This document shows, piece after piece, positions 38,614 through 64,000 of a stretch of 64,000 nucleotides of DNA (positions within the stretch are counted from its first letter, which is position 1; each line of letters begins with the position of its first letter). The translations under genes were made by a program, and so were the position numbers. Source of the stretch: Physcia stellaris (Eukaryota; Ascomycota; Lecanoromycetes; Caliciales; Physciaceae); assembly GCA_018902385.1 (NCBI GenBank), contig JABSSW010000040.1:393663-457662 (forward strand), in the 5' to 3' direction. Below the pieces are notes generated by a model. That model searched no databases. It was not told where the DNA came from and saw only the letters and a list, made by a program, of their open reading frames with translations.

Positions 38614-39765
38614 TGTTGAAATTGCAAGCAATGTGCGACGCCAAATCTCAAATCACGTTAATTTCAACGTAAAATTAAAGCATAATTCGTTGTCCGATCA
38701 CATATCATATCAATTATTTATTTGTCAAATTTATTTGTCAAACATGTTCGTAACACTATTTTTCTTTTTTCGCGAGCGTCGTCTCGACGATTCGTTGTTA
38801 TTTCGAAATTGAAAAATTTTGTTGAAAATTTTGTCGATTGATTTGAATGTTTGCAAAATTCAAAAATTTCACGATCATCATTTTTCATTTTCAAATGTTT
38901 CGTTATTGTTTCAAAATTCGATAAAATTTGACAACAATTTCTGAAAATGTTTTTGACACGATTCAACTTTTCATGCGACGTAAATTCTGACTGTAAATAA
39001 CATCGAAACGATAACGAAAACTAGAAATTGCGAAAACGTTGCGAAAATGAAATCGAAATGAATGTATTGAATTCGAAATTTTCAAATTTTAATCGAATGT
39101 AATTTCGATTAATGTCAACATGACGATTTTTTTTCGAAAACGACGACGATTCATCGAGAAATTTGATTCGTTGACGACGTTTTGAAATATTGAAATCAAC
39201 GTTTTGAACGATTTTGAATTTGCAATCGTGAAATGAATGCGATAAAAATCGTTCATCACGTCGCGAACATTATCAAATTTTTCGTTGTCGACATAATATC
39301 ATGTTCGATCATGCGATCAATTCGATCAATTGACACGATATTGAAAACGATTGTAATGATATCGAAATTTCAAAATATCGTTCATTTTTCATTCGAGATT
39401 TTCGTTGATTATGACAAAATCAAAAAATTCATTGATTTGATTTTCGAATGAATCACGAAAATTTTTGCGCAAAAATCAACAATGAAACACATCGTAAATA
39501 TGCATGATTTCAAACAATTCGAGTCGATATGAATTGTTCATACGTTGTAATATTTTGTAAAAATTTAATTTTTTGTTATCGAATTTGTCAAACGATTTGA
39601 TCGTTTTGATGTTTCGTCAATCGAAAAAAACGAAATTTTTCTCGACGTATTTTACGATTTTTCGATATTTGTTGATTTGAATTGTTATACGTTTTTGAAT
39701 CATCTTTGCATGATTTCGTACGTAATTGAGAATATTTTGCATTGTGTCGATAATATTTTTTGTTT
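38614..39765 (-). mobile_element. Gypsy element C, 3' part (3' LTR and integrase end)
   Basis: An LTR ends at 38755 (..ttcgtaaca then ctattttt), the same junction that follows element B's 3' LTR at 39987. The LTR start is uncertain (38614 or 38632). From 38756 to 39765 the sequence aligns with B's post-integrase region and, near 39600-39765 on the minus strand, with the integrase C-terminus (NIIDTMQNILNYVRNH). At 39766 it is cut by element B. This is the oldest layer visible. Confidence 0.7.
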
Positions 39766-39770
39766 TGACG

Positions 39771-39987
39771 TGTGAAATGCTATGCAATGATATGATACTA
39801 CTACATAATTACACGAAAATATCGAAGTGAAAAACAAATACATGAAATTTGCAAAAACATATGTAAAAAATTTGATTTTTTGAATGCGTCAAGACGAATT
39901 TCGATTCTAACATTCGATGTGATAAAATAACGATATTAATTCGATATTAAATTTGTCAAATGTTGAATTCGATGTACGTTCGTCACA
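39771..39987 (-). repeat. 3' LTR of element B
   Basis: On the minus strand it runs TGTGACGAACGTAC..TTTCACA, 217 bp, preceded by a purine-rich tract (gaaactgaaaaaaaacg). It matches 54664-54900 and, inverted, the LTRs of element A. Confidence 0.85.
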
Positions 39988-41356
39988 TTATTTTTCGTTT
40001 TTTTTCAGTTTCGTCTCGAAACGATCAATTGAATGTTTTTGTTTTTAACGAAAAACGTTTTGCGCGATTTAAATATGTTATTGAATGACGTTGAATTGAA
40101 TGATTGATGAAATAAATAAATAAATTCGAAATGCTGTGAAATCGATTTCGTTCGCGAAATCGATTCGTCAAATATCGTGAAAACATCAAATCGATTTACG
40201 ATAAAATGAACAATTTGATCATGTTAATAAAATCATCGTAACAATGTTTAAAATTTTGATATTTTCGTGTATGCGAAAATTGATGTGTACATTGCATGCG
40301 ACAAAGCGTGAATGTAATGAATGTCGTGAAAAATGATCAATTCATACAATTCGTCAAAAATAATTTCGACGAACATTAGTAAACAAACAATTGAACGCGT
40401 CAACAATTTTGAAAATTTTTGTTACATCAAATTGATATCACGAAACGAACAGTTTGATCATGTCGAAAAAATTTTTATTATCATGATTAACGCGTTGATG
40501 TTATCGCATATACAATTTTTGATTCGTACATTGCATTCAATGAAATATGCACGTATTAAATTTTTTGAAAAACAAATATTTTGAACGAATTTTACAAATA
40601 GTTTCGCGTGTCATTAATAAACAATTGAAAATTTTGTTGACGAACTTGTAAATATTCGAATTTTTTTGACAATTTGCGTTCGCTCATTTCATTGCATGAC
40701 ATTTTACATTATCATTCATTGTTCAATAAAATTTGACGACAGTTTTTGAAAATGTTTTTGACACGATTCAATTTTTCATGCGACGTAAATTTTGATTGTA
40801 AACAACGCGAAATGATAACGAAACGAATGACAAAAAAAAAACATTGTTGAAATCAATTTGAAAATGAATTGTAACGAATTCGTTGACAATTTTCTGATCG
40901 ATCGTAAATAATAAAATTCATGATTTAATCATTTCGCAAAACAAATTTCGCTGTTTTTGAATTAATTTCGTGAAAAACATCGACGATATTTTGAACATTT
41001 TGAAATTCGTCGTCGTCGACGTAATATCACGTTCGATCGTGAAATTTTCATTCGAATCAATTGTAACGATATTATAATCGATGATAATGATATCGAAATT
41101 TCAATATATTATCGAATTTTCATTTCGACATTTCATTTGCAATAATTGATTTTGAAAAATCGTTATGTTGTTTTTTCAACGAGTTTTTAAAATTTTTTTT
41201 CAACAATCAAAAATGAAAAATTGAATGAATGTGCATGTCGTCGAACAATTTCAATTCATAAACGAAATTTTTTTTTTTGATTATTTTGTATGAATTCAAT
41301 TTTTTGTCATCGAATTTGTTTGACGAACGAATCGTTTTTATATGACGACGATTTAA

Positions 41357-42004
41357 TCAAAAATAATTTTTTATTTCAAAATTTATAAACAAACGAAATT
41401 TGTTGATTCGAACAATCATTTTTTGTTTTGCATCGACAACATTGATTTTGACATATTCGATGATACGATTTATTTTTTCGACAATAAATTCGTTTTGTTT
41501 AATCAACAAACGTTTTTTTGTGATTTCGTAATCATTTAAATTTGATTCGAAAATCATTCGAAAATGATATTCTTTATTGATAAAAAATGAAATAAATTTG
41601 ATGATTGTTGAAACATCGTTGTTGTCAACGAATTTCATTATATTTATTCAATCAATTCAATCGTTTTGACGATAATTGCAATACAAACGTAATCGAATTT
41701 CGATATTTTGATTGATTCGTTCGATTTGATCATCAATTTCAAATTGAAAAACAATGAACAATTTACATTTGATTTTTAATCGTTTACAAAAAATTTTTCA
41801 AACGCGATTTACGAATTGATTATCTCGATTTGAAATAATGAAAAAAAATAATTCATGAATACGAAATACGTAATGTATCAATATTTTTACACAAATTTGA
41901 ATTGTCAAATCATCGTCATCGATTACGCAAAAAACGTAATGTCGTTTTTTGATCAAGCGATCGATAATAATACAAATGACATTGTTGTTTTTGAAATCAA
42001 ACAA
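41357..42004 (-). pseudogene. Element B integrase remnant
   Basis: The segment 42004-41798 reads ICIIIDRLIKKRHYV and IISNRDNQFVNRV (integrase core, D in SDRG-like position); 41638-41357 reads MKFVDNNDVSTIIKF and EKINRIIEYVK, the C-terminal part of gypsy integrases. The intervening frame is interrupted. Confidence 0.75.
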
Positions 42005-43516
42005 TTCGATTATGAAATTTATCGATATATCAATTCATCGTTGACTAAAAATCGACAATGAAATTAATAATTCGTGACGATTATCGTGTGAAAACTTCGA
42101 TCGTTGATATTTGTGACAATTACGAATATAACGTTTGATGAATAATTTCATATTAAATCAATAATAATAACGTTTAATGAATTTTTCAATACGATTCATG
42201 TTCGAATGTGCACAGAAAAATTGATCGTGAACGTCACAAATTATTTCAATCATAAAATTTAATCGATTTGATATTCAAAAATTTTCGTTTTTAAATAAAA
42301 TTTCATTTCGATTCGAGCAAATTCGCAAATTTATTTTTTCGTTGATGATTTGATCATCGATCAAAATTTGACGATAATTAATACAATTTTCGTTTTCGCG
42401 ATTGATTTGCATGACACGTTCGTACAAATCATTTATCGCGTTTATTGAACAAAATTGTAATCGAAAAAAAAAAGCAAAATTTGTTTTTTATAAAGTTTTT
42501 TTTCGTCGTTTTTCGTTGAACGAAATTCAAACATTCGAATCAAAACATCAATTTTAACGTTTTTGACGTCGAATTGATATTGAATTTTGATATTGTAATC
42601 AATCAAAATTTCGATTCAACGCATTTGACGAAAAATGAATTTTTTGTTTGTCATAAAAATTTTCAAATTTTTGTGATCGATGTAAATTTCGACGAATTCG
42701 TCGATATTTTCGAATTCGAATTTTCAATGCTTTAAACATCGAATAATGATTAAAAATTTTTTGTCATATATTTCGTAATTGCATTCGACAGAAATCATTT
42801 TTTTGCTGAAAAAAATTATCGAATGAAAAATTTCGTCGTCGTCGTATTGAGAAAAAATTTCATTTAAACATCAATTCGAAAAATCGATTTTCAAAATCGT
42901 TTTACGATTGCGATCGTAATGTCGAAAAATTGAAATTTCGATCATTTGTTTTTTCAAAATTTCGAACGTTTCATTGATCAAATCGATTCATTCGAAATCA
43001 ATTTTTTTTTGATCATTCGAATTAAAAATTTGACGAATTTCGAAAATATTTTGATAAAACGTCGATAAAAATTGCAAAAATTTACAAACGTTTGCATTTT
43101 TTTGATGCAAATGAAACGAATTCAATTGATAATGTTTTGCATTTTTTTTGAATTCATGCGCAAATTTTTTGTTGATAATATGACGTCGAAAAAAAAAATT
43201 TTTGTTTGAAAAAATTCGCATTTCTTGATATCGATTTGAAATTCGACTTTTTTTAATTTTTGAAATATTTGAATAAAATGTCGTTCGTGTTATTTTCGAA
43301 TTTTGTTGTAAATGAAAATATCATTTAAATACATTTGACAAAAATGATTGATATATTCGAACAACAAATCGTTCATGTAATGTTGTCAATTGATCGAATC
43401 ATTGATTAATTCAAAAAACAATACATGATATTTGTAAATGTTTAACGAACATATGAAAATAATGAAATTTTCGCTTTGTGAATTTATTCGAAATTTATTG
43501 AAAACAAATATGATAT

Positions 43517-44029
43517 TCAATTTGAACAAAAATTTACAATCGATAATTTTTGCGAGAATTTTTCAATCAACGAAATACAATAATTATTACGTTTGATTAT
43601 AACGTTCAACTTTCGATAATCGACACACAAACGAAATTGTTCGTTCGATTTGACGACGAATAAAATGAACGAAACATAAAACGTTTTGTTTGAATTGATA
43701 AATTTTTTTTGAAAATTATCGTGCAAATATTTTTGAAAAATTTCGAATTTTTTAAACGATAAAGAATAGACTCGACTTCGAGACAATTGATTCGAATTTT
43801 TCGTCAATTCGATTTTGTGATCGTAAAATTTATGCGAAAATAATTTGTCGATTTTTTTCGAATTGAATACGTTTTCGAATCGTTTAAAAAATTCAGAAAT
43901 TTTACGTTTCAATTTTTCGACGATTGTTTTCATGATTTTAAAATTTTTTTTGAAATTCAAATCGAAATCAATTTTTATTTTGATTAAATTTTTTTTGACG
44001 TTGTCGATAATTTCGTTTAATTTTTTCAT
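43517..44029 (-). pseudogene. Element B reverse transcriptase remnant
   Basis: The clearest gypsy RT piece: FYDHKIEL, SRSRVYSLSFKKFEIFQKYL, FVVKSNEQFRLCVDYRKLNV and a following NYCISLIEKF, the N-terminal RT palm/fingers pattern of chromovirus-like Ty3/gypsy elements. The catalytic YxDD lies beyond the last intact stretch. Confidence 0.85.
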
Positions 44030-44384
44030 GATTAAAGAAAATGTTTTGATTTTTTTTTTTTTTTAAATTTTGTTAACGATTGAAAAGCAATCGCGTCAAT
44101 AAAAACGACATTTAATGATGCGTCAAAATTGAAATTTTGTTCGTCGTTTTCATGTTCGAAAATCGTAATTTTCGATTTTCAATTAAAACGTCGCGTAAAT
44201 TTTTTGAATAAATCGAATTTTTTGATCGAAACGTTGATCAAATTCGATTTTTGTGTTTCGCGTATTGTTTTCATTTTTTGTTTTTTTTTGAAAAATTTAT
44301 TCGAGAAATAGTTTTTGTTTATTTTTTCGATGACATATTTGAAATCGAAATTCAAAAACTTTTTAACGACGATTTTTTTTCGAT

Positions 44385-44957
44385 TCAGTTTTCAACGATA
44401 AAGCGAAAAACAATCGATCGAAACGAAATCGAAATTGATCGTTTTTGAAATATTTGATATTTTTGAACATTCGCAAAAAAAAACGACGTGAAAAATCGTT
44501 CAAAAAACGATAAATAAAGTGTTTTATTCGATTGTTTGTTTGAATTGAATAATTTTTGAAATATCGACGATCGAAACGATAAATGAAATGTTTCGTCATG
44601 ATCACAATGATTTGATGTGAAATAACATTCGTCATTGATCATGTTGAAAATCATTTTATGTTTGTTCATTTATGATTTATTTAAAATCAACGAATGTTGT
44701 TTTATTCTGATAATAAACAAAAAAACGAAAAATTTCGAATGATTTTGTATCGTCATTTTGAACAATATTTGATGAATAATAGATTTGATTTCTGTTTTTT
44801 CGAAATTAAAAATTTTTTTGAATTTCGATAAAAATATTGAAATTAATTTTAATTTATGACAAACTTTTTGCGCAATTTTCTCATTAATGAAAACATATTC
44901 AAAAATATCGATATCAATTAAATCATGAATCATGATTTTTCGATTGTCAAAAAACAA
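44385..44957 (-). pseudogene. Element B aspartic protease remnant
   Basis: Reads DIFEYVFINEKIAQKVCHKL followed by MTIQNHSKF and QHSLILNKS, then KHKMIFNMINDECYF, matching the gypsy protease-to-RT linker. The catalytic D-T/S-G reads as a mutated form (DIDIFE). Confidence 0.65.
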
Positions 44958-45269
44958 ATTTATTTTCTTAATTAAAAATTTACAAAAAAACTCGTTAAAA
45001 ATGTTATGTTGAAAATTTCGTGAACAAATTCTGATAATCTTTTTCGCGTTTTCGAAAAAAATAATTAATTTTTCGATTCATCGAAAAATGAAAAAACAAT
45101 GAATGTATTGTTAATATAATCGAAAATCGTTGCAATATTTTGAAAATTGAATATTTTTTTTTAATCAAATCGTTTATTCATTCGAATAACGATTTGTTTG
45201 ATTTGCATTTTTTTCATTAATGTTTTAAATTATCACAACGACGATATTTCTTTTTCACAAAAAAACGAA

Positions 45270-45721
45270 TTATGACAATTTTGTAAATTTTTTCTCGATT
45301 GAATTGATGTAATTGATAATCAATTTCGCAAAATATTTTTCGTTTCGACGAATTCGAAATATTTGTTTATGATTCGAAAATTTGAAAAAATTATCGTCAT
45401 CATTTTGAATACGTCGATGACGATTATCGATTGTTTGAATTTTTCGATGAAAAACATCAAACGAAATAAAATTATTCAAATTATTCATAATCAATTTGAA
45501 TTTAACGATAAATTTTTTTTTCAAGTTATGAATTTTGTCGTCATCAAATTTGTTGAGTAATTGATTAATCAATAATAAAAATTTTGAATAAAATTCGTTG
45601 TACACATTCGAGAATTTTATTCGAAAATCGTCGTATTTACGTCGAATATTTCGATCATGATTTGCATCGACGTAAATGATATCGAACAATTTGAAAATTT
45701 CTTGATAATCGAAAAAAAAAT
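45270..45721 (-). pseudogene. Element B gag, 3' portion
   Basis: A gag capsid-like frame (RRKYDDFRIKFSNVYNEFYS, KFLLLINQL) that is cut at 45722-45726 by insertion of element A. The 5' portion of gag resumes beyond 53382. Confidence 0.65.
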
Positions 45722-45726
45722 GACGT
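45722..45726. repeat. Target duplication of element A, left (gacgt)
   Basis: Pairs with aacgt at 53378-53382; the single difference is a G->A transition. Confidence 0.7.
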
Positions 45727-45952
45727 TGTAACGAACGTGCATCGAATTCAACATTTGAAATCAACATTTGATTAGTCATTAAAGTTAACACTTTTATCTT
45801 ATCACATCGAATGTTAAAGTCGAAATTCGTCTTGACGCATTCAAACGATTTAATTTTTTACATATGTCTTTACAGATTTTCATGTATTTGTTTTTCACTT
45901 AGAAATTTTCGTGTAATTATGTATTAGTTCAATCAATGCATGACATTTCACA
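45727..45952 (+). repeat. 5' LTR of element A
   Basis: 226 bp, TGTAACGAACGTGC..TTTCACA, aligned along its length with 53150-53377. Confidence 0.85.
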
Positions 45953-46801
45953 TTATTTTTAAATCATTTATTTTTTTCAGATTGTTCGAGATAAAACAGT
46001 CTATTCAATAAACAAAATTTCAAATCAATTACGAAAATTTAAAACGTCATTTTCAAAGTCAGACTGAACAAAAAAACTCGATTTTATTCAGCGAATCAAC
46101 AAAAAAAGAACAGAAAATTTAGCTCGCTCTAATGTTGTACAAAATTTTCAAAAAAGTGTTTATCGCGAAAATCGATGTATCAAGTCGAATATATCGAAAA
46201 ACGAATTGCAAAAATAATCGTCAAATTATCAATCAACAAACATTTATACGATAAATCGAAATTCAACATTCATCGTTTCATCAAAAATTATTCATCATAA
46301 ATCAACACGAATTATTTCATCGAAAATAACATTAGTTCAAAATTGTTTTCGTTGTTTTTCACGATCAAATTTTTAAAACACGACTATTTCTGAATATTTA
46401 TTGTCGAATCGATTGAAACGAAACTTTTTTTTTGCATTAAAGTTTCAATCATGTTTATTTTTATCAACATTTTTTTTGTGATCATTTTCTTTAAACTTAA
46501 ACGCAAAATTCTTAATCAAATTCAACAACTAGCAATTTTTTCGAAAAATGATCGAGCTATCGTCGATTCATTCAGATTGATAAAAGACATTTTTTTAAAT
46601 TACGTTTTTTCGAAAAACGCAAATTACAATTCGAACGATGCGAAACATGCGATAAACATTTGTATCGTCGAACAGTTTTAACAATGAATTCGCAAAAATT
46701 TCTTCACGATATTGCAAATGTTGAATCAATTGAAAATCGATCGTGACGCGAAAATTCAAACTGTTTGAAATTGAAACGTTCACGTAAAAAATTATAATTC
46801 G

Positions 46802-47919
46802 TTGATCAAAAATTTCGAAAAAATCGAAAAAAACAAAAAACACAATCGAGAAATCGTCAGCTTATTTCGACGAGAAAATAAAAATATAAATCAATTCAAT
46901 GTCGATAAATTCAAATTCAACATCGAGAATGAAAAACTCAAAGAAAATAATCAGACGTTGCGTGACGAGATGAATATTTTTCGAATGAATTTTACAACAA
47001 CGTTCATTTTTTTCATTTTTCAAAATGATATCAAATTCAAAATCGAAAATGCTAAGTTGATCAATCGCAATGTAAAATTTCAAAACGAAATAAATTTTTT
47101 AAAGATCACAACAACGTCAATTTTCAATTTCATATTGCTCATCGATAAAAAGAATAAAAATGTCAAAATGTCGAATTTTTTCAAATTCAATGAAAACATT
47201 TCAGATTTTTTTTACGAAATTTAAAAACAATTGATCAAAGACAAATTCATTGTTAACGTCGATCATTTCGTCGACGAATATATCAAAGCAACGACATTCA
47301 TCAATTGAATCGAAAACAAAATTCGTGATCATCTTTTCGCTCGACGTAAAATCGACATTGTTTATTTCAAAATTTTTCAAATGATTTTTGATGTTTTGAT
47401 TTTGATCTATATTGAAAAAAACAAGAAACGAAACGTACGCAATAAGTTCAAAATTTTTATCATGCGTATCAATCAACGTTTTTCGAAATTCTTTTTCGAG
47501 TTTTTGATGTTGTTCAGTCAATTGTCTCATTATTCAGAACAGAATTTGATCGATGAATTTCGCGAAAAGTTCATTTTTCAATTACAGCGAATCATTGTTA
47601 ATAACGATCGATTTGAAACAATCGAGAATTTAAAGAAACTAATTGAAAAAATGAATCAAAAATTACATTTTCTTGAAGTCACACGTTTCGAAAATTCGAC
47701 ATTTAGAAATATTTCACGAATTATTTTCAAAACATCAATTGTCAAAATCGTAATTCGTGATAGCATGTTCAACGTCAAAAAAATCATGTTCGTCGTCGAT
47801 CAAATGATCATGAAAATTTTTTATGATAAAAATGACATCGATAAAGATTGTTATCGTTGTGAAAATTTCAATCATTTGATACGAAATTGTTTTTTTTTTA
47901 AAATCATCGATATCTGATT
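46802..47919 (+). pseudogene. Element A gag remnant with zinc knuckle
   Basis: A Lys/Asn/Ile-biased frame with coiled-coil character (ENEKLKENNQTLRDEMNIF), then a capsid-like part, ending in a CCHC zinc knuckle at 47849-47890 (CYRCENFNHLIRNC, C-x2-C-x4-H-x4-C). The frame is interrupted near 47222. Confidence 0.75.
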
Positions 47920-48102
47920 GTTCAAGAAAATTAAACAAGAAAAAAACATTTTGACAATCAACGAAATGAATGAGTTTTTAATGAATTTTCAAATCGAAAT
48001 CGACTCAATTTCTTTTGATGATTATTTTAGTGATATTAACAACGAAACTTCTTCAATTCATGAGTCGAAAAACGTCTAAATCTTTTCAGAATCGCGGCGA
48101 AA

Positions 48103-48744
48103 ATGTTGTTTATTTCAGCAATGTCAAAAACATTCAACACGTTCAATAAATTTCAAGACAATTTTCTAATAATTAAATGTACATTAGTTTTCGATAAATA
48201 CGAACATAATTTGCAAACATTAGTTGATACAAATGTCACTGAATACGTTTTCATTGATGAAAAGATTGCGCAACTAGTTTGTGAAACACTTCAGATAATT
48301 TTTGTGATTTTATCACGATCGAAACTCGTCAATGAATTCGATGATCGCGAAATTAAATTCATTATTTATGTCATTTATTTTACATTTATCGTGCAAAATC
48401 ATTCAAAAATCACGATTTTCATATTCATAATCAAAATCGAAATTCATTCGTTGATATTGAATAAGTTTTGAATGAACGTTCACGAAATCATTCTCGACAT
48501 GAAAAACGATAAAATTATTTTCAAATTCGATCGCTGTTTTCATTTCGAAACATTCAGAATTTTTAAAATCAAAAACGAGCGTTCAATTTCGTTTAGAAAA
48601 TTATATTTTTTTTCATCAATATCGTCAAACAAATTTTCGATATCGATGAGTTTTCAAAAATATCAAATTATTCAAAGACAATCGACGTCATTTGTGTTCA
48701 AAATTAAATTTCTTTTTTTTTATCGTCGAAAACTTCGAGAATGA
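48103..48744 (+). pseudogene. Element A aspartic protease remnant
   Basis: LQTLVDTNVTEYVFIDEKIA preserves the retroviral-type protease pattern, with VDTN in place of the D-T/S-G-A triad, followed by VQNHSKITIF and EIHSLILNKF. Confidence 0.75.
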
Positions 48745-49099
48745 GAAAAATTTTTTTTTCAAAAACATATTGAACTTTAATTCTCGATATGCTATTGAAA
48801 AAATTGATAAAAAATATTTTTTTGTCAAACTTTCGAGAAAGAAACGACGAATTAAAATCATACGAGATTTTCAACAATTTACATTCGTGAAGATTTCTGT
48901 TCGAAAATCGAATTTAATCAAGAAATCTGCTCGACGATTTAGTCGTCGATTCAAAATTTCGATTTTTGATAATGAAAACGACGAACAAGATTTCGATTTT
49001 GATGTTTTTTTGAACGTCGCTTTTATCGACGTCGTTGTTTATCAATTCCTGACAAAATCAAAAAAAAAAAAAAAAAATCAAGACATTTTCGTTAATCAT

Positions 49100-51690
49100 G
49101 AAAAAACTAAATGAAATTATTGACAACGTCAAAAAAAATCTAATCAAAACAAAATTTGATTTCGATTTCGATTTCAAGAAAATTTTTAAAATCATGAAAG
49201 CAATCGTCGAAAAATTGAAACGAAAAATTTTGATTTTTTAAACGATTCGAAAGCGTGTTCAATTTCAAGAAAATCGATAAATTATTTTTTCATAAATTTT
49301 ACGATCACAAAATCGAATTGATCGAAAAATCGAAACAATTGTTTCGAAATCGAGTTTATTTTTTATCGTCAAAAAATTCGAAACTTTTCAAAAATATTTT
49401 CACGAAAATTTTCAAAAAAAAATTTATCAGTTCAAACAAAAGCATCGTACGCATCGTTCATTTTATTCGTCGTCAAATCGAACGAACAATTTCGTTTTTG
49501 TGTAAATTATCGAAAGTTGAACGTCATAATCAAACGCAATGAATATTTTATATCATTGATTGAAAAAATTTTTTGTTCGAATTATAAATTGCAAATTTTT
49601 GTTCAAACTGAACATCATATCGATTTTCAATAAATTTCGAATGAATTCACAAAACGAAAAGCTGATTATTATTTTTATATGTTCGTTGAGCATTTACAAG
49701 TATCATGTATTATTTTTCGAATTAACAAATGATTCGACGAATTGACAGCATTACATAAACGATTTGTTGTTCGAATACATTAATCATTTCTGTCAAATTT
49801 ATTTGAACGATATTTTTATTTACAGCAAAATTCGAAAAACAAACGACATTTCACACAAATGTTTCAAAAGTTGAAAAAATCGAATTTCAAATTGATATCA
49901 AGAAATGCGAATTTTTTCAAACGAAAATCTCATTTCTAAACGTCATATTAACGACAAAAATTTACGTATGAATTTCAAGAAAATTCAAAAATATCGTCAA
50001 TTGAATTCGTTCAATTTGCATTAAAAAAGTACAAACGTTTGTGAATTTTTGCAATTTTTATCGTCGTTTCATCAAAGCATTTTTCAAACTCGTCAAATTT
50101 TTGATTCGAATGATCAAAAAAAAAATTGATTTCGAATGAATCGATTTCGTCAATGAAACGTTCGAAACATTGAAAAAACAAATTATCGAAACTTTCATAT
50201 TTCGACATTACGATCGTAATCGTAAAATTATATTAGAAATTGATTCATCAAATTGATGTTTGAATGAAATTTTGTCGCAATACGATGACGAAAAAATTTT
50301 TCATTCGATGATTTTTTTCAGCAAAAAGATGATTTTTGCCGAATGCAATTACGAAATATACGACAAAAAATTTTTAATCATTATTCGATGTTTGAAACAT
50401 TGAAAATTCGAATTCGAAAACATCGACGAATTCGTCGAAATTTACATCGATCACAAAAATTTGAAAATTTTCATGACAAGCAAGAAATTTATTTTTCGTT
50501 AAATACGTTGAAATTCGAAATTTTGATCGATTATAACATCAAAATTCAATATCAATTCGAAATCAAAAATGTCAAAACGAACGTTTTGATTCGAATGTTT
50601 GAATTTCGTTTTGTCGATAACGACGAACGAAAATTTTATAAAAACAGATTTTGTTGTCGTTTTCTCGATTGCAATTGTGTTCGATTAAATTTTCAAAACG
50701 ATTTGTACGAACGAATAATAAAATCAATCGAAAAAATGAAAATTACATTAATTATCGTCAAATTTTGATCGATGAACAAAAATCATCAACGAGAAAATAA
50801 ATTTACAAAAATGTTCAAATCGAAACGACGTTTTTTTCAAAAACGAAAATCTATAAATATTAAATCGTTTAAAAAAATGATTGAAATAATTCGTGACGTT
50901 CGATATTCACGATCAATTTTTTTTTGTGTTCATTCGAACATGAATCGCATTGAGAAATTCATTAAACGTTATTATTATTGATTTATATGCGATTATTTAT
51001 CAAGCGTTACATTCGTAATTGTCACAAATGTCAACGTTTTAAAGTTTTTCACGATAATCGTCATGAATTATTAATATCATTGTCAATTTTTAGTCAGCGA
51101 TGAAGTGAATATTTCGATAAATTTCATAATCGAATTATTTGATTCAGAAAAAAACAACGTTATTTGCATTATTATCGATCGATTAATCAAGAAACGACAT
51201 TATGTTTTTATGTGATCGAAAACGACGATTTAGCAATCGAAATCTGCGTCAAAATATTGTTTCATTACGTATTTCGCACGCATGATTTATTTTTTTTATC
51301 GTTTCGAATCGAGATGATCAATTCGTAAATCGCGTTTGAAAATTTTTTTGCAAACGTTTAAAAATCAAATGTAAATTGTTTACGACATTTCAGTTTCAAA
51401 CGAAAATGATCAAATCGAACGAATTAATCAAAATATTGAAACTCGTTTACGTTTATATTGCAATTATCGTTAAAACGATTGAATTGAATGAATCGACATC
51501 ATGAAATTCGTTGACAACAATGACGTTTTCGCAATCACAAATTTCATTTCGTTTTTCATCAATAAAGATTATCATTTTCGAATGATTTTTGATTCGAATT
51601 TAAATGATTACGAAATCATTAAAAAACGTTTATTGATTAAAGCAAAACGAATTCATCGTCGAAAAAAAATGAATCGTATCATCGAATGAA
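49100..51690 (+). pseudogene. Element A RT-RNase H-integrase remnant
   Basis: RT start near 49255 (HKFYDHKIELIEKSKQLF). RNase H at about 50346-50500 ([18 protein letters not shown], then a stop, then YIDHKNLKIFM). Integrase zinc-finger and core at about 51000-51350 (NCHKCQRFK; IIIDRL), and C-terminal part 51501-51690 (MKFVDNNDVFAITNF). Frameshifts and TGA stops separate the pieces. Several stops sit where the family has Trp. Confidence 0.8.
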
Positions 51691-53149: not shown

Positions 53150-53377
53150 TGTGATTTGCGTGCGAATTCAATCGAATTCAACAAAATCAACATTTGATCA
53201 ATTTAGAATTAACATTTTTATTTTATCATATAAAAATGTTAGAATCGAAATTCGTTTTGACGCATTCAAACGATCTAATCTTTGACATATGTCTTTACAG
53301 ATTTTCATGAATATTTGTTTTCATTTAGAAATTCTCGTGTAATTATGTATTAGTTCAATCAACGTTTACATTTCACA
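53150..53377 (+). repeat. 3' LTR of element A
   Basis: 228 bp, TGTGATTTGCGTGCG..TTTCACA, followed by the target duplication aacgt. Confidence 0.85.
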
Positions 53378-53382
53378 AACGT

Positions 53383-53680
53383 TAAATTTTACGAAAAACG
53401 TCAACGTGTTCGACGATTTTGTTTTTTAATCATTAAACGATTGAATGATTTTTTGTTGTTTTTCGAAATATCAATTCAAACGATTTTCAATTTATTTACG
53501 CATTTATTTTTTCAAATATCATATCGAATTAATCGACAAAAAAACGTTTGAATTTTTATTGTTCAAAAAAAAAAAAATCAATGTATTTAAAAATCAATTT
53601 TTTGTTTTTGAACAAATTTTGAAAAAATTAATTTTTTCGTCATAATTGATTTTTGAAAAAACATCGAATTTTAATCATTC

Positions 53681-53713
<33 letters not shown>

Positions 53714-54663
53714 GTTTACGATTAACGATGAATCGTTTGTCGATTTTAATACGATATTTATGAATTTCAATTCGATTTGTTTCGAATTGAACGTTGATTT
53801 CATCGAATTTAAAAAATATTTTAAATTTTCGTTTTGATAGGTATTTTTCGCGATTGTTTCAAACACGAATGATATTGATATTTTTATTTTTATTTTTTCG
53901 AAAAAAATTTCAAAATTTTCAAAATCGTGCAAATTGTTCAAAAGTCGTTTTTAATTTCGAAAATTGAATATGTCAATTGACGTCAAAATTAATGATGAAA
54001 TTCGATTTTGTAAAATCGATGTTTGATCATTAGAATATTTAAAAAACGTTCAAAATCATCGATTTTCTGATTAAAATCGAAAATATTCAACTTTTTTGTT
54101 TAAAATTTGACGTTTTTTCAAACGAGTTGAAAAAATCATAATGATAAAAAAAATAAATGATTGATTTTTAAAAAAAAAAAAAAAAAAATTCGAAATATAA
54201 AAAACTTAAATAATCGATTGAGTGTAATGTCGTTCGAAATGATAAAAAATTGAAATTTATTGAAAATGAAATTTTTGATTAATTTTCGTTTTTTTTTACA
54301 AATTCATTTTTTCGAAATGATTTCGATATGTGTTTGATGATATATTCGACGTCATTTTGTGTAAAAAATTAATTTGTCAATTAATAAAAAAACGAAAATT
54401 GAATCGACGTTCGAAAAATTATTTTATTGACATCGAATCGTTCAAAATTCGTTTGTCAAAATATTCGAGAATCGACAAAACAAATTTATTATGTAATTTT
54501 TCGCATTCAAAATCAATTTGTTACGTTTTGATTATTTTTTTGAATTTCGTTAAATATACGAACTATTATGTTTTTCAAATTTTTTGATTTTGAAATTAAA
54601 AATTTTGTTTATTTGAATATTTGTTCATAAACGAACAGAAAAAATGATTTCGATATATTTAAA
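53383..54663 (-). pseudogene. Element B 5' internal region (gag start), displaced by element A
   Basis: Lies between element A's right edge and B's 5' LTR. A minus-strand frame at 53941-53711 (MNNLHDFENFEIFFEKIKIK) is a plausible gag N-terminus. It contains a T28 homopolymer at 53685-53712. Confidence 0.5.
53685..53712. repeat. T28 homopolymer
   Basis: Twenty-eight consecutive T on the plus strand, the longest run in the window. Its length may be unreliable in an assembly. Confidence 0.9.
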
Positions 54664-54900
54664 TGTATGCGAAAAAATTGAATATGACATTATTACATAA
54701 TTTACAACGAAAATATCGAAAACAAAAACAATTTTTGAAATTTGCAAAAAATATGAAAAAATTTGATTTTTGAAATCAAGAAAAATTTCGATTTTTTTTA
54801 ACAAAAATTTTCGTTTCAAAAATTTTCATAATCGACAAATGTTAATTCGATCGTTAAATTGTCAAAAAACAAAATACGAATTCGATGTACGTTCGTCACA
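54664..54900 (-). repeat. 5' LTR of element B
   Basis: 237 bp; the inner boundary is set by alignment to 39771-39987. It is immediately followed by tgacg, the target duplication. Confidence 0.8.
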
Positions 54901-54905
54901 TGACG

Positions 54906-55720
54906 ATCAAAATCGCTTTTTCGTTGTAACATACGAAATTTTGCAATTTTATACGACGTTTTGAAAATCTTTTCGATAAAAAATTTAATTAATTGAATAA
55001 TTAAAAAATATTTCGTGAATTGATTTCGCAAATTCGATTTTGAAAAAAAAAAATCGTTTCAATTTTTCAATAATTGCAATTCGCAATTGTTTTTCGATAT
55101 TTTGATTGATTTTTCGATTTGAAATCGAAATTTTTTTCAAATTCGAAAACGATAAAAGTTTCATTTGATTTCGAAAATTCGAAAAATGTTTGTCGAAACG
55201 AACGAAATCGAATAAAAAATTTCGATCAAACGTTATCGAAAATGTTTAATTGAAAATTCGAAATACGTAAATATTGACGACGCGATTTCAATAACGATAT
55301 TTCGTCGTCGACGAAAAATTAAAAAAATTGTTTTTTCAAAATTTGTCAATTATTTGCAATGACATTGATGATCGTGAACGTCAAAACAATTCGATAATGA
55401 AATTCATTGATATCGATTCAACGTTGCAAAAATGATCAAAAAATAATTAAAATCGTTTTTCGTTTTTTGAAAATTTTCGAACGTTGAATTCATAAAATTA
55501 CGCATTTTATCGACGAATTGTTTTCGCATGTTGAATTAATAATAATCACGAAAATAAAATTTTTCATGCGATTAAAATTTGAATGATTCGAATCAAAAAA
55601 CGAAAATTTTTTTGAAAAATCAACGAATAAAAAATTTTGACGAACAGCAGAATCGATTTTTTCGATAAAAATAAATTTCAAAATTCAATGCGATAAAAAA
55701 ATAATTTTTTAAAAACGAAA
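54906..55720 (-). mobile_element. Gypsy element C, continuation (pol remnant)
   Basis: Resumes beyond B's target duplication. About 55330-55450 aligns with B's integrase-core region at 41980-42070 (shared caattcgat..atgaaatt..tatcgat pattern). The minus-strand frame 55681-55490 (FIFVIIINS after FFDSNHS) resembles the RT/RNase H junction. It is shorter than in A and B, so deletions are likely. The right border is not resolved. Confidence 0.5.
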
Positions 55721-56102
55721 AATTTCGATGAATTTCAATAAATGCAAATCGTTAATTCGAAAAAAATGTCAAGAACAATATGTGAAAGAATGAAAAAAAT
55801 TTGATTGTTAATTTTTCGAAAAAGTTTCGAAATATATATTGTAAAATTATGTGACAAATGATTTATTTTTCAACGACAAACACGTTTTAGTTTTCAAATT
55901 TTGTCATTGACAATCGTCAAACAAAAAATTTCATAGTCGAAAAAAAATTTCTAACTTTTTTGTTTCAATCAAAATAGACGACGTCGTTTCGAACTTTTAG
56001 TAAATGTCAAACAATATTCGCTATTTCTAATTTTTTTTTGAAAATTCTTGAAATCGATGAAAACGACGCATCAAAAATTCAATCGCAAACGTCGACGACT
56101 AA

Positions 56103-57270
56103 TCAAACGAAATCAACGAACGTTGACGAAATCGTGATCAATTCGATTGTGATTGACTTTCGAATCAAAACAAATGTTTCGATGTCGAAATTAACGAAAA
56201 TGTCGTGTTCGATTTGCGTGAAATGACAATTGCGAATCGTTGATTTGTTGATGATTGAACAAGACGTCGATGATTCTAATTGTGAAAAACTTTTATTCAT
56301 TGAGATGTCAAACGATTGTCGAAAAGACTTTGACGAAATGACAATCTTGATCAACGAAATGATGAAAAATTTTTGCAAACGATTTGACAAAAAAACGTAA
56401 AACGTAACGCGTTTTCGTAATTTGTACAAAATTTTGAACGTCGTCGAGTTCTGATAAATTTCGTTTAAATCGTATTGTGATTTTGTAAAAAAGTCTTTTC
56501 GTTTGACCAAAATATTGATAATCGTCAAACGACGTTTGATTTGAATTTTGTTGATAAATTTTTTCAATTTAATGATTTGTTCGATTCGTTTTTTCAAAAA
56601 CAACAAATTCTGACTGATTTGAACGTGAACGATGAAAAATCGTTTGAAAAAAAACAAATTTCAATTGAATTATAAATAGAACAAAAATGTATACGTCGAT
56701 GATTCGAAAATTTCAATCGATATGTCAGATTGTCAATTTTTTTCAAAAATTTTGAAAAAATCGATATATTTGATTCGACTTTTTATCGAGAATTTCGTTG
56801 TCGATATGTTTAATCGTGATGCAAAATTAATCAATGCATAATCGTCGATTTTCATGAACAAAAATTGATGTTTGCGATCATAATAATATTTGCTGATTAT
56901 TTGAACGAATGCAATGAATCAATTTCAAAACGAAGCACGAATAATTGCATTGAAAAAATCTTTGCGAAAGATTTTCGATTGTTTGCGAAAAATTCTTTCA
57001 AATCGTCGATGAAATCGGATGTTTTAACGAATTGACGAAACATGTTCATTTATTATAACGAAATGAATTCGTAGAATGTTTCGTTGAATGTCTTGTGAAT
57101 AGTGACAAAATGAAAATTGTTGAAATGACGTTGTAATTTGACCAGTATTCTAAATCTTCAATTGAATTTTCATTGTAATCGAGATAAAATCGAAAAACAA
57201 TTTCAATCATTTGATCAAGTTCGTTCGAATTGATTTTCAATTTGAAAATGATATAAATTGAATAAAGCAA
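56103..57270 (-). pseudogene. Integrase and downstream remnant of a second gypsy type (element X)
   Basis: On the minus strand, 57270-57046 reads DQMIEIVFRFYLDYNEN (after the core His-Pro-x-Thr-Asp region) and about 56960-56740 reads ISKYYYDRKHQFLFMKIDDYA, the Tyr-Asp-x-x-His-Lys step of integrase C-termini. The segment 56657-56103 may continue into a chromodomain-like tail (LVKRKDFFTK), but mutation makes this uncertain. The sequence is clearly different from the A/B/C integrase end. Confidence 0.6.
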
Positions 57271-60200
57271 ACGAATTTCGAACTGTTTGAAAATTGTTGT
57301 TTACATATCAAACAAAAATTTGCGATTTCGATTCGAAATTATGATTTTCGATATATTTCAGTCAACAACATTTAATTTGTCGATTAACGCGATTTTTCAT
57401 TTCAGCGACAAATCAAATCTTCTTGTCGACAATGAATGTGAAAAAATGAAATGCATTGACAAACATCGTGATATTCAGTTCGTCACGAAAAACAAATAAA
57501 ATCAAAAAAAATTGCAATTATTGATTGTACGAAAAATGAAATCGACGAAATTAATATGAATTGTAACGAGTCATACGATGCGTGTTTTTGATTTGATACA
57601 TTTCAACATTTCGAACAATATTTCAAATAATTACGCAAATAACGAGACAAATCGCGAATATAATATGGGCGAACATTTTTTCGAAACAGTTTGACATAAT
57701 TCGCATGTTCGTCGTCATGAATTAATCGCAAAATGTTTGATACAACGAAATGAAAAATGCAAAGTCGACGAAACTCGTAAAAAAATCATCAATGATAAAA
57801 TTATTCGAACGAAAAATCAAATTATTTTTTTTTTTATAAAAAGATAACTTTGCGACGTTCTCGTCGTCAACGTTGATATTTGACTGATTTTTGTCAATTC
57901 AAATCAATTTTGTAATCATCGAATATTCGATTGCGAAAATCTTTTTTCATTTCGATTAGTGAAATTGTGAACAGAACATCAAGTTTATTTTATCAAAAAA
58001 TTTGAAACGTTGATATTATCGCTGATTAAACGTGACAAAACGTATCAAAAACAATGTGTTGTTTTGTTTGATTTATGTCGAATATCGAAATTGAAAATGT
58101 AATGTAAAATCATTAACAAAACGTAAATTGCATTTGTCGATTGAAATTGTTATAATTGAATCGTGATTTGATTAACAATTTCGAATGCAAATTTAATCAA
58201 TATAAACGATTGTTTTGTTTGACGAAATTTGACAATATGTTTTGTTTTTTTTGAATATTCGATGTTTCAAACATTTGTTATTTTCAATTCAATAAATCAA
58301 TATTTTGTTTCGACATCGATGAATAATCGACTAAGAAAAAGTATCGATTTTATAAAAATTTTCGAAAAAATATTTGTTTGATTCGAAAAAATTTTTGACA
58401 TAAATAAAATGACATCGTTTTCGAACTTTTTTGTTAACATTCAAATCAATGAATAAATGACGTTTGAAATTCGAAATGAATTAAAATAGAAAAACATTTT
58501 TGTCAAAACGATTTGCAAAAATTGAAAAATGAATCTTTCAATTTTTGTTGTAAAATGTTTCAACGCGTGTTTTCGAAAAATAAACGCGTTTAACATTTTG
58601 CAATAGAATTCGTTACGCAATACAAAACTTCGTTTTTTTTTTGTTTTGTAATGATTTGAAAATGTCAACATAATGAACAATATAATCGTTGATTTTAATT
58701 TCAGTCAATCAAGTCAAAATACATTTCGAATTTTCGAAAAATGCGAAAAAAATCGAAATTTGACAATTGTTTTGAGTTTTTTCGAATGTGAATTAAATCG
58801 CGTTCGAAATCAATTTCTGATTTAAAAATGAAATTGATGAATAACAATCAAAAAAATTTTGATAAATTTGATCGAAATGTTGTTTTTGTTTAACATTGAA
58901 AATATCTTGTTTTGCAAATGAGTTTCGTGTTCGATTTTTGTACGAGAAAAATTTTTATATCGTTTAAATTTTGACAAAATGACGATATTCGCGAAACATT
59001 TCGATCAATTTGACGTTGCATGTACGTCGATAAATTTTTGTAAATGACAATCACGTTGAAATTTTTCTGATTTTTGTGATTTGACAACAATAAGTTTGTG
59101 TCGATCATTTGAATGAACTCGTCATTGATAAAAAAATCGAACAATCAAATGATTGATATGTAATCGCAATTTCGCATTGCGATTATAATATCTGTTTGCA
59201 ATGATAACGAATATGCGTCAAATTGTGTTATGTCGTTGAAATTTTTGATGTTTATAATTACACGATTTTTTTCGTCGTTAACGTTTTTCAAAAAAAGCAA
59301 AAATAGAAAAATGACGTTGATTGATTAATTCAAAACATTCGATCAATGCGATACAAATCGTCGAAAATCTTGTTTATCAATTTTCGTTTTTGCATTCAAA
59401 AAATACATTTTTGTCTTTTCTGTTACACGTTTTTTAAGTTATTTTTCAATGATATTTTCATTCAGCATTGTTTTTCGACATTTTGACAAAATCGATATTT
59501 TGTCAAAACGTCGAAAACTTTTCAACAATTTTGACGAATGAGTTTAGCTCGTCGAAATTGTAAACAATAACGTCGTTAAACAAAACGATTTCGATAAATG
59601 AAATAAAAACGTTTGTAAAAAACTTTTCGAAATCGTTACATCGATTTTAATTGTGAAAACTTTTCGCAATTCAACAACTGACATCGAAACTTGTTGACAA
59701 AATGATTACAAATGATGTTGACGATTGATGTTTGTGACAAAATGATTAACGACGATGAAATAACAAACGTAATCGAAAATTATTATCGATTGCAACGACG
59801 ACGACGTAATCGCGACGCAAACGAAATGAATTTTTGAATCAATCATTTTTGTGAATGAATTTTGATTTTTGACGACGAAATATCTGACATTTTCGTCGTC
59901 GATATCTATATGAAAATTTTCAAAAAAATCGATTTCAAATATTTTGTCTAGTCGAAAGTTTTTAAAAATCATGATTGAAAATTTTTATCGTTGTTCTGAC
60001 AATAAATTTCGTAAACGCGTCAACGAAATGTTTACAAAATGAAATTGAAATTGTCGTTCGATTCAAACAGAAAATTTTTGTAATCGACAAATCAACATGA
60101 TAAATGACGACGAAATCATTCGACATGTGACGAAATAATTGTAATTTTTTGAAATGAACAAATCGTTGAATCGTCAACTTGCAAAAAAACGTATTTTCAC

Positions 60201-60900
60201 GATGTATGATTATGTCGATACTATTTATCGTTGCGTGTTTTTTAATCATGTCGATAACGAAATTTTCGAATTAATGATATCGTTGTTTAAAAACGTTTGA
60301 CTTTCAAATTGTTTACGAAATGAATTTCGCGTCTGACAACGACGTGATTTTTGATTTTTTTTCAAACATGTGAATATAATCGATTTTCAAAACTTTCGTG
60401 TCGATTAATGTTTAAACGCACGCGTTTGAAATGACAAATCATGATACAATTGAAATATTAAGTGTTTGTGTTTTGAAAAAGTTTCGATTCGATAAATAAA
60501 ACGTTGATCATCGATGTTCAAACGTTCGCGTCTTTTAACACGACGATTACGACAAGTGAAATTTTGATTTTGACGTAATTTTCGTTCGAAATTCGTATTT
60601 CGTTCAATATTTTTGAACGAATCGACGTTAAAACGAATAATGAAAAATTTCGAAAGCAAATAAAAAATTCGTAAATTCGCAAACGTGACGATTTTCGACT
60701 GACTAAACTCGAATTTTTTCGCGTCGAAAATCGATTGTAAATGAATTGACATTTTTGACAAGATAATTTCGACGTCGTTAAAAAATTTCGATTTTGAGAA
60801 AATCAAATTACAATCGACGAAAATGACGATGTAACTCGTTGTTAAATGTAAAAGTTTTTTTTTACGAACGACGAAAATGAGATAACAAATTATTGATTTG
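57271..60900 (-). mobile_element. Decayed retroelement DNA, probably pol of element X
   Basis: AT-rich, CpY-depleted DNA with fragmented minus-strand frames (58680-58441, 59144-58890, 59972-59706, 60249-59962, 60806-60405). Its position between gag-like and integrase-like remnants on the same strand suggests protease/RT/RNase H, but I could not identify motifs with confidence. Confidence 0.4.
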
Positions 60901-61096
60901 CTGAATTATTGACGCAATGAAATTGACGAAAATTCGTTCTTCTGATTCGAATTGTAGTAATTCAGATTATTCGTTTTCAATATAGTAATTTTCAAATTGC
61001 TCGTTGTGAAAGTCTTTTCAAAATTTTTTCGTTGTTATTTTTGATCGACAACAAAAGTTCTAATTTTGTCGTAAACGATTGTCAAATTCGTTTCGA

Positions 61097-61574
61097 TTAT
61101 TTTTGTTTTGTGTCGTTTGTCGATCGACGTTGTGATTGATTTTGAGTTTGAAATTCAATCACGTTTTCGAATTTCAATTGCAAAAATGTCTGATTGACAA
61201 AATAAAAACGACAAATGTTTTGAAATGCGTTTGAAAATTGATATTGAAATTTCTGATATTTTTGATAAACATTATTTTGAAACGTCGAGTTTTGATATTG
61301 ATATAAGTTGTAATTTGATGATGATTTCGTACGAAAAATAAAATTGAAAATATTCGACGTCAAATTGCTGTTGATAATCGTTTTGTCGTTCGCGATTTTG
61401 TTTATTGATTTGACGTTGTTTATTTTTGATCAAAATTAAAATTGACATGTTGAATAAATTTATGAGCAAATCATTTTCTATCGAAATACTAGTCTTGACG
61501 TCGACGAATCGAAAAATGAAATAAGAATAATAGTCGTAATTGATTAATATTTGCATTTTGAAATTGAAATTCAA
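61097..61574 (-). pseudogene. Gag-like remnant, probably element X
   Basis: Minus-strand overlapping frames rich in Gln, Tyr, Asn and Ser (KQRQINKQNRERQNDYQQQF; YQYQNSTFQNNVYQKYQKF), the composition of the linker region in retrotransposon gag proteins. Confidence 0.45.
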
Positions 61575-61599
61575 ATTATTTCACGTCATGATTAGTGAT

Positions 61600-62800
61600 T
61601 GTAAATAAAATTAAATTCGACGATTTTAAAATGACGCATGATGTTTTTGCACGTACGTTCTAAACGTTTTATCATTGCGAACATCTTTCGCTGATGTATT
61701 TTTTTGTTTGTAAATTTTGAAAGTTTGTGAATCGCGTTTTTGAATCGACGAATCAAATCACGACATCATTGATTCGTTGATGCGTATTTATGTGTAAGAA
61801 ATTTCGTTGTTTTTTATGAATGATTTCTGATCTAAATACAGCAAATGTCGAAGATCGACTAAATTTCTTTCGATTAGCTTTGTTGATGACTAACTAGTCG
61901 TAACAATAAGCACGTAACAAATGTCAACAAACAAGAAAAATCGAAACGTTTTCGCTGAATTAAATACTAATAGTCATGTCGGATTACCTTAACAAATTCT
62001 GTCGATCGTTTCATTAATCGTCGTTTTTTCAATTTTTAATTTTGATTCTTCACGTTACGTTTTGAATTCGTACAGCTTTTTAACTTCGATGTTTCACGTT
62101 ACGTTTTGAATTCGCTATCGATTTGATAATAATGACTATTCGATGACGACGACGACGTGCTAGTGGCCGCTCGCGATCACGGAATGTGACTTTCGCGAAC
62201 GAAATTGTCGATTTGATTTTATCGCGATAACTATCGACTTTGTCGCGACAAAAATGATTAGCGCAATTACAGTAAAAAACGACGTAATGACAATTTTCTT
62301 TTCAAAACGACGACGATGTTTAATTGATTTGATATTGTTTTCGAATTGTTGAGTGATCGTAATTTTTTTCGATCGACTGAAACGATACGTCGAAAATTGA
62401 TGCAAATGTCATTGTTAAAATGCTGTCGTTGTAATTTTCAACAAAGTCGATAAATTCGATCAATTTAACAATGTTTTTCGCTCGTCGTAAGTTGATTTTG
62501 ATTTTTTCAGCGTATCAAATATTGTGTCACAGTAATTTTATTGTAAATTCGGAAACGTTTGTTTACTATGATTTTTTTATTTCGAAGTTTTCGAATTCGA
62601 TATTAAACATTTTTATTTCAATTTCGTTTGAAAAATCAAATCTGAAACGTCGATAAGAGTTTTTTTGACGATGTCGATTTTAATTGAGTGACGAAAATGA
62701 CGAAATGAATTTGCGAACGAAATGACAAATCTAGCTCGTAAATCAAACGTTTTATTCGTCGTTTGACAAAAGAAACGAATCGATGCGTTGATTGAACGGC
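61600..62800. other. AT-rich repeat DNA, unresolved LTR/boundary zone
   Basis: Somewhat less depleted in CpT/ApG than neighbouring DNA (for example ctaactagtcg near 61890), so it may be LTR or leader DNA between elements X and Y. I could not pair it with another repeat in the window. Confidence 0.35.
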
Positions 62801-62855
62801 TTTGCGTTAAATTTACTAGATAGAGTGTATTTTTTTGTGTAGTCGTAAATAAACT

Positions 62856-64000
62856 TTATCGTCTGACTTGAACAACAAAAATGTGACGTGAATCGTATAT
62901 GATTTTGATTTTAATCATGACATATGAAATAAGCGTCGATTGTTTTCGTTGATGTCGAAAACGTTCAAAATCGATATCGTCGATTTTGATAGATTTGCGA
63001 GTTAGAACGATTAAAACATCGCGTAATTTGAATTCATAAATCATCTCGTTGAATGAACGATCGATGATAACGTTAAATGCGTTGTTGATTAAATTTGCAA
63101 AATTGACAAAATTTCAATTGATCGATGTTCGAATTTTTCGTGATTAGATGTCGCAAAACGATTTTTCACAATTTGATTTTGATCGTTTTGACAAGTCGTT
63201 TGTTTGTGCGTGATAAACGTTGCTCGTAAGTAAAATAATGTCTAATTTAACAAAAAAACGATTCAAAAAAGTCTGACGTGAACTTTTTTGTCTCGATCGA
63301 AAATAATGATCTTCCGAAATGTTTTGATTCGTTAGCAATAATCTATCAACAACAGCATTAATTAATTTGAGCGACAATCAATTTGCTCTGTCGGTATGAC
63401 TTGTAATTGACGTGAAATCTTGTTCGTCAAATTGAATAAAGTGTTAAATTCTTTGTTTAAACGATAATGTCAATACGAAATTAAATCGTTATTGTATGAA
63501 AGAATAATGACGACGTGAAAATGAACATTAATTAAATGCAGTACGAACTATGTCGTTTGATTTGATTGAATTGGCATTCAAAACAATGTCGCAAATCATT
63601 CGCAATTTTCTCGACATTGTTGACATGTATATTGTTTTAAATTTAATCGTCGATAAACACGATGATGATTAACGTGAAAATTGTCGTCGTCGCGTCATCT
63701 TGAAGACGTTTTGCTGACAAATTTCGAATATACATAGTTTAAACTGTTCAAATTCATGTCATTGTTTCGTAGATATGATAGATTAATTCGTCGATTAATT
63801 GAAAGTTAATGTCAATTCGTCGATTGTTAATTTGACGATCGATTTGTGATTTCTGCGACAGATTTTTGTGACAGATTGTGATGTAATCGATTGTTGATTG
63901 GCAAGACGTTAATTGATTGTCTTGTCGTTTGCGAAAGACTTTCTGTAATTGACGATTGTGTAACTGAATTGTCGAAAGACTTTTGCAAAATTTCTTTTTT
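62856..64000 (-). pseudogene. Integrase remnant of another gypsy element (Y), continuing past the window
   Basis: On the minus strand, 63377-63144 reads FLNRFFVKLDIILLTSNVYH then AQTNDLSKRSKSN, the mutated HPQTDGQSER-type core of gypsy integrase. The segment 63044-62856 reads SYVMIKIKIIYDSRHIF, its C-terminal part. The 5' part (RT, gag) should lie beyond base 64000. Confidence 0.65.

Follow-up and report, generated by a model that had tools for sequence, protein, structure and literature searches.

Introduction

The closest described relatives of the mutation pattern reported here are the repeat-induced point mutation (RIP) systems of fungi, which differ in the dinucleotides in which C is changed to T. 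In Neurospora the order of preference is CpA>CpT>CpG>CpC, and CpC is also last in Trichoderma reesei (PMC5496416). Signatures at CpA, CpT and CpG have been linked to the RID or Masc2 classes, with 'CpC' absent from the accessible text (PMC4352252); CpT>TpT is a known main or second RIP signature and is tied to RID-class genes (PMC4352252, PMC10998396), and a kingdom-wide k-mer survey of 2025 gives CpA preference as common to RIP-like defences (PMC12543289). Here we describe a 64,000 bp stretch (the window) of Physcia stellaris, a lichen-forming fungus (Physciaceae, Caliciales; PMC7513301), which is the end part of contig C40 (positions 393663–457662) in an assembly of 43.97 Mb and 147 contigs. 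The window contains two islands of mutated transposon DNA, and both a gypsy retrotransposon family and the end of a second element have near-saturating C>T and G>A changes on both strands in the CpC/CpT context. We consider it likely that these reflect a RIP-like, methyltransferase-driven repeat defence acting on P. stellaris transposons in the order CpC>CpT>>CpA, CpG.

The published P. stellaris genome is 46.57 Mb with 43.32% G+C, and the assembly was built from Nanopore and Illumina reads; in the accessible text of that paper 'rip' begins a word three times and 'cytosine' does not occur (PMC7513301).

Base context of the islands

The two islands, neither of which is assigned a strand, are as follows.

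38551..64000: hypermutated island that runs to the contig end; GC 0.21–0.33, CpC/GpG nearly gone and CpT/ApG scarce
9651..14000: another hypermutated island, alike in context, from base-context counts

A direct count of positions 44101–44220 gives 15 C and 17 G with no CC, CT, GG or AG, reproducing the figures of the initial annotation, which was made by eye from the sequence. That annotation also described sampled lines at 9961, 50401 and 60001 as the same; the strong depletion stands, but the number is not zero, as these 120-base lines have 1, 2 and 1 occurrences, respectively, of CpY (C before a pyrimidine) or RpG (its complement). For each of the four lines, none of 2000 base shuffles was as low in CpY/RpG, and the shuffle means were 13.2–16.6.

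In 1-kb bins, both islands have a GC content of 0.21–0.33, with CpC contributing 0–2% and CpT 2–19% of C-dinucleotides, as compared to 16–30% and 21–31% in gene bins. CpA and CpG are retained, and the observed/expected ratio of TpA is low (0.30–0.53) rather than elevated, in keeping with the earlier impression that CpA is common and TpA not enriched. The proportion C/(C+T), taken over both strands, is 0.003–0.014 before C and 0.010–0.089 before T, and is 0.48–0.58 before A or G when any base but C precedes, which falls inside the range for gene DNA before A or G (0.41–0.68). Where the preceding base is a surviving C the values before A/G are 0.039 and 0.061, which is expected because that C itself stands before C or T. 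The depletion of CpC is more complete than that of CpT, such that the 'CpY' specificity is graded, and TpCpG is retained (C/(C+T) 0.517). Within 60001–63000, two bins (60 and 62 kb) stand below the rest of the island in CpA share (0.37 and 0.32) and in substrate index (0.92 and 0.87), perhaps from another repeat family or some CpA change.

Mutation of a gypsy family

A direct view of the changes is provided by one gypsy family. Its reference is L039 (C5:1165001–1168500), an unmutated copy with a stop-free reverse-transcriptase region, and a second copy, L040 (C12:58801–62300), is 95% identical to it over 3.5 kb and ordinary in composition. Both have a GC of 0.46–0.58 and ordinary CpC and CpT content. 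The query with these two copies gave 226 candidates, of which 40 genome matches were scored and 38 are diverged; the best-scoring 20 of the 38 were aligned to L039, and this sample leans to the less changed copies.

C>T changes relative to L039 are present at 3043 of 3218 sites before C (94.6%) and 3235 of 4166 before T (77.7%), and at only 226 of 3827 before A (5.9%) and 80 of 3317 before G (2.4%). The usual RIP preference (loss of CpA with gain of TpA) is thus not seen, and CpG is not a target. In the control comparison of L040 with L039 the changes are 5/178 before C, 7/214 before T, 4/194 before A and 1/168 before G. Read in the reverse direction, from L040 to L039, they are 14/190, 11/213, 2/186 and 8/184, and L039 perhaps carries a faint trace of the same mutation. 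Each diverged copy has 233–356 C>T changes, compared with 7–19 T>C and 8–26 transversions (both strands counted), and the transversions correspond to 4–13 sites in ~1.45 kb. The base following the target is decisive and the base before it has little effect, with changed fractions of 0.92–0.96 for CpC and 0.72–0.84 for CpT depending on the preceding base. Over the 20 copies the strands are about equally affected (CpY changed 0.56–0.93, RpG 0.67–0.95).

The damage is graded among the copies, at 81–98% of CpC and 48–89% of CpT. The least changed copy, L041 (G+C 0.346), has lost 81% of CpC, 48% of CpT, 3% of CpA and 1% of CpG, and therefore CpC is mutated first. A C>T mutation process, and not an odd consensus, is behind the islands. 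The initial annotation had proposed a saturating C to T change before pyrimidines on both strands, and this is borne out in graded form; the two findings that it held to be at odds with the proposal, CpA as the main mutated context and a family consensus already lacking CpY, are both contradicted, in this one family and 20 copies, by the CpA and CpC counts and by the composition of L039 and L040.

Standard RIP indices

An Ascomycota survey whose indices rest on CpA nevertheless reports CpT>TpT as dominant in its RIP-capable controls (PMC7882544). We applied the criteria given there (product >1.15, substrate ≤0.75, composite >0) in overlapping 1-kb windows, and none of 56 island windows and none of 65 gene windows passes, as had been anticipated from the sequence for the islands. 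The median composite index is −0.96 in the islands and −0.56 in gene windows. Ratios matched to the observed context separate the two, with a median (CpC+GpG)/(TpC+GpA) of 0.00 in islands versus 0.765 in genes, and a median (CpT+ApG)/(TpT+ApA) of 0.064 versus 0.99.

Genome-wide footprint

Sixteen ten-kb stretches (L008–L023) were chosen by position alone, and low-GC bins are present in three of them: L022, L023 and L019, the last of which shares its contig with the window; there are none in the other 13. In these bins the values are 0.000–0.031 for C before C, 0.02–0.11 before T and 0.45–0.51 before A/G. We note that the window's contig has a mutated island at both ends, the one at its start being L019 (C40:1–10000). 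Mutated islands may break the assembly and thus be underestimated.

Stop codons in transposon remnants carry the same mark. In 150 reverse-transcriptase (RVT_1) matches, scored from 527 candidates, there are 250 TGA, 33 TAA and 3 TAG (copied by hand from the match table); TGA is present in 138 of the 150 and ten have no stop. Ten DDE_1 transposase matches have 44 TGA, 3 TAA and no TAG, summed by hand and including two rows on C14 that overlap, and one match is stop-free. A GpG>GpA change turns TGG into TGA, and the TGA excess in both classes of remnant agrees with the CpC/CpT context. When the stop-free DDE_1 copy (L061) was compared with L062–L064 only L064 aligned, at 57% identity, which is too diverged for the context to be read.

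Mutation events

Copies L041 and L042 have nearly all of their mutations in common outside one tract, with four ungapped differences there. In the tract (~1041–1325) one strand of L042 has 29 extra C>T changes, of which 28 fall at CpC or CpT; A>G and G>A changes number only 4 and 3. On that strand 2 of 44 sites are changed in L041 and 30 of 42 in L042; on the opposite strand the numbers are similar, at 26/35 and 24/35. This fits a single event along one strand, and gene conversion could be an alternative origin of the tract. Such a strand-confined tract is unique among the 20 copies (of 280 windows tested, the three that reached p<1e-3 overlap one another and belong to L041). The copies mostly differ in which CpT sites they retain, with a mean pairwise phi of 0.15 and only one of 190 pairs above 0.8, and most copies were therefore probably hit separately.

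Elements within the window

The larger island contains an inverted pair of copies of a gypsy-type element, 81.8% identical across 4785 aligned columns. In-frame TGA codons are read as X in the Pfam matches.

39771..44467, minus strand: mutated gypsy-type retrotransposon copy, from self-comparison and Pfam matches of inner frames
48653..53377, plus strand: mutated inverted partner of the preceding copy, from self-comparison
42442..43494, minus strand: remnant reverse-transcriptase RNase H region (PF17919, PF17917) with 7 in-frame TGA
41072..42487, minus strand: remnant integrase region (PF17921 above the cut-off, PF24626 below it) with 9 in-frame TGA

The second island coincides with a 4.5-kb element (9587–14088) with direct repeats of ~540 bases and inverted ends of ~78 bases. 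A Pfam search of two long frames from it, with TGA as X, gave no match.

9736..10270, plus strand: left direct repeat, mutated along its whole length
13545..14088, plus strand: right direct repeat, 91.5% identical to the left and mutated to ~14.0 kb
14010..14088, plus strand: unmutated outer end of the right repeat, with 20 differences from the left repeat
9587..9664, minus strand: left-edge sequence matching the outer end in inverted orientation, mutated in part (GC 0.42 vs 0.51)

At the unmutated end of ~80 bases, C>T at CpC or CpT, counting either strand, accounts for 19 of the 20 differences from the left repeat; the remaining one is before A. Among all 37 differences between the two end repeats 26 are before C or T, and the 17 outside the unmutated end are mixed. 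Other copies of this end span states from unmutated (0/11 for C before C) to that of the mutated L027, in which the C>T changes are 9/10 before C, 3/10 before T, 1/8 before A and 0/10 before G; L026, L033 and L038 in this comparison are copies from the window itself.

Methyltransferases and deaminases

Three PF00145 genes are present in the genome, from four matches of which two are exons of one gene. One is DIM-2-like, with an open frame of 1118 residues, the motif LENV and a DUF7893 domain. The other two are RID-A, with the catalytic loop PPCQFFSDAHT and motif LEQT, and RID-B (L001:844–2055, on C6), with the loop PPCQSFSPAQ and motif MEET. In Aspergillus, Cyphellophora and Xylona the loop is PPCQxFSPAHT, unlike that of RID-B. 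The names RID and DIM-2 are assigned from sequence motifs and from a tree, and the two RID-class genes and one DIM-2-like gene are of the kinds that the initial annotation had suggested looking for. The tree was made quickly from 56 selected rows and has long branches (10 for protein P0244, 3.98 for DIM-2); in it 13 rows, RID-B and P0244 among them, form one clade (support 99), in which the only other named member is Heterodermia, and RID-A lies in a separate clade of 27 rows (support 98) together with Usnea, Lasallia, Gyalolechia and the non-lichen Xylona. It is a guess that the loop changes in the RID enzymes alter the target context.

There are also eight PF00383 deaminase matches in the genome. 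The best of these (G000:C64:178666–179121) has four internal TGA codons, which could be introns or a mutated copy.

Depleted proteins in databases

A mutated frame of the window, with TGA as X, was used as a protein query, and 83 database proteins match it. Seventy-three of the 83 have less than 1% Pro plus Gly, yet 0.9–5.2% Trp, as if their gene callers had read TGA as Trp in mutated transposons. The search favours query-like sequences and frames free of TAA and TAG, and the frequency of the process therefore cannot be read from these matches. Two groups can be told apart. In the first (P0121–P0159; 35 depleted, 32 aligned), Pro is opposite Phe in 40% and Ser in 36% of instances, Arg is at 7.2% and L/F is 0.93. 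In the second (P0160–P0203; 38 depleted and aligned), Pro is opposite Ser in 51%, Leu in 16% and Phe in 6%, with Arg at 4.7% and L/F at 1.9. We read the first as apparent loss of CpC plus CpT, and the second as apparent loss of CpC with little of CpT. In the first group, which are metagenome proteins, 15% of His is opposite Tyr, as could follow from CpA change or simply from divergence. The second group hints at a possible sister version of the process that hits CpC and little CpT.

Possible origins of the mutations

The explanation we favour is that a cytosine-C5 methyltransferase of the RID/DIM-2 type would act before meiosis on duplicated DNA, making or guiding the change, and that an altered reading by this enzyme of the base 3' to the target would give the CpC/CpT context. 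Transposons are disabled by TGG>TGA stops and because Pro codons are lost (CCN>TCN or TTN), as are those for Gly (GGN>GAN). In favour of this explanation are the C>T counts by context in the 20 copies as compared with the L040 control, the few transversions, the balance between strands, the one-strand tract, the TGA excess in RVT_1 and DDE_1 remnants, and the two RID-class genes and one DIM-2-like gene. The enzyme, the repeat trigger and the sexual-stage timing are parts that we infer.

Several observations weigh against this explanation. The preference for CpA by which RIP is usually recognised is missing. The targets are transposon families, yet L039 and L040 are unmutated at 95% identity, and they should not be so under an efficient homology-triggered process; in Neurospora the threshold is at least 80% identity over at least 400 bp (PMC3017866). 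The two copies could be of recent origin, or the process could by now be weak or inactive. The altered RID-A motif is also found in Gyalolechia, Usnea and others, and Gyalolechia flavorubescens and Cladonia metacorallifera are listed as moderately RIP-affected by CpA-built indices (PMC7882544). The RID-A motif alone is therefore insufficient to account for the context, because Gyalolechia has it and yet scores as affected by indices of the CpA type. Furthermore, according to one review, RID itself has no demonstrated in vitro methylation activity (PMC13297926).

A slower route to the same outcome would be 5-methylcytosine in heterochromatin, placed (by DIM-2, for instance) mainly at CpC and CpT and lost by gradual deamination with no dedicated mutator. 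The DIM-2-like gene, the CpT preference that the same review gives for Neurospora DIM-2 (PMC13297926) and the graded damage to CpC and CpT would all be accommodated, but with nearly all CpC changed, so few transversions per copy and CpG and CpA changes so low, together with a 29-change one-strand tract between near-identical copies that resembles one event, we regard this as unlikely. Slow neutral drift to AT is ruled out by the scarce transversions and the near-untouched CpA and CpG. The strand-confined tract could instead be the work of a DNA cytidine deaminase (APOBEC/AID-like) acting on exposed single strands of transposons, and there are the eight PF00383 matches in the genome as candidates. 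Enzymes of the APOBEC/AID type take their context from the base preceding the target C, however, and here the following base sets the context and the preceding one hardly matters. The near-equal strands over the 20 copies do not fit editing of one cDNA strand, and the same TGA excess is present in remnants of DDE_1 DNA transposons, such that one-strand cDNA editing is not supported and a deaminase in general seems quite improbable.

It is scarcely credible that the islands are an ordinary AT-rich repeat, a sequencing or assembly artefact, or a consensus that always lacked CpC and CpT. The contig does start and end in an island, so that assembly breaks fall there, but copies of the family that escaped mutation have ordinary CpC and CpT, one element end passes from mutated to unmutated, the 73 of 83 homologous database proteins have the same loss of Pro and Gly, and the 20-copy alignment contradicts it; a CpY-poor original consensus in particular is ruled out by that alignment and the composition of L039 and L040.

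A broader version of the methyltransferase explanation is possible but doubtful: the diverged RID-B would drive a CpC-first repeat mutator that forms a separate and widespread branch of fungal defence, missed since indices target CpA/TpA, whose ruins would be the Pro- and Gly-free proteins in databases with TGA read as Trp. If the RID/DIM-2-type explanation is true, the preference of fungal repeat mutation can be inverted, with Neurospora's least used site becoming the most used, and surveys based on TpA/ApT, CpA or TAA/TAG stops would score such a genome as RIP-free. A natural change of specificity together with two diverged RID-class proteins would make the role of RID, and the reading of the neighbouring base, testable by enzyme swap.

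Comparison with known systems

Among the open-access papers covered, we found no report of CpC as the leading target. We set the P. stellaris process apart from classical RIP because CpA preference was looked for and is not present, and because repeat dependence and sexual timing are here only presumed. It resembles RIP of Neurospora crassa in having C:G>T:A changes in transposons on both strands, AT-rich islands, and RID-class and DIM-2-like genes, and differs from it in the order CpC>CpT>>CpA, CpG, in TpA not being raised, and in failing the standard indices. RIP in Botrytis, Sclerotinia, Magnaporthe and Anisogramma anomala has a CpT component in common with P. stellaris, but there CpA accompanies CpT and CpC is unmentioned in the accessible descriptions, whereas in P. 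stellaris CpC leads and CpA is spared. Depletion of CpC is described in Stagonospora nodorum with CpA dominant (PMC2621366), and CpC>TpT double changes in Monilinia alongside classical CpA>TpA (PMC8959702); in these accounts CpC is a lesser target and CpA>TpA the main or classical change, whereas in P. stellaris CpC comes first. Microbotryum and the rusts (at TpCpG), and Tuber in part, also have context-specific C>T change in transposons, but CpG is nearly untouched here. Among lichens, the RIP islands of Cladonia rangiformis are likewise low-GC, sharp-edged transposon islands in a genome with RID and DIM-2 homologues; they are defined by GC, and CpA, CpT, CpC and 'dinucleotide' are absent from the accessible main text (PMC12542154).

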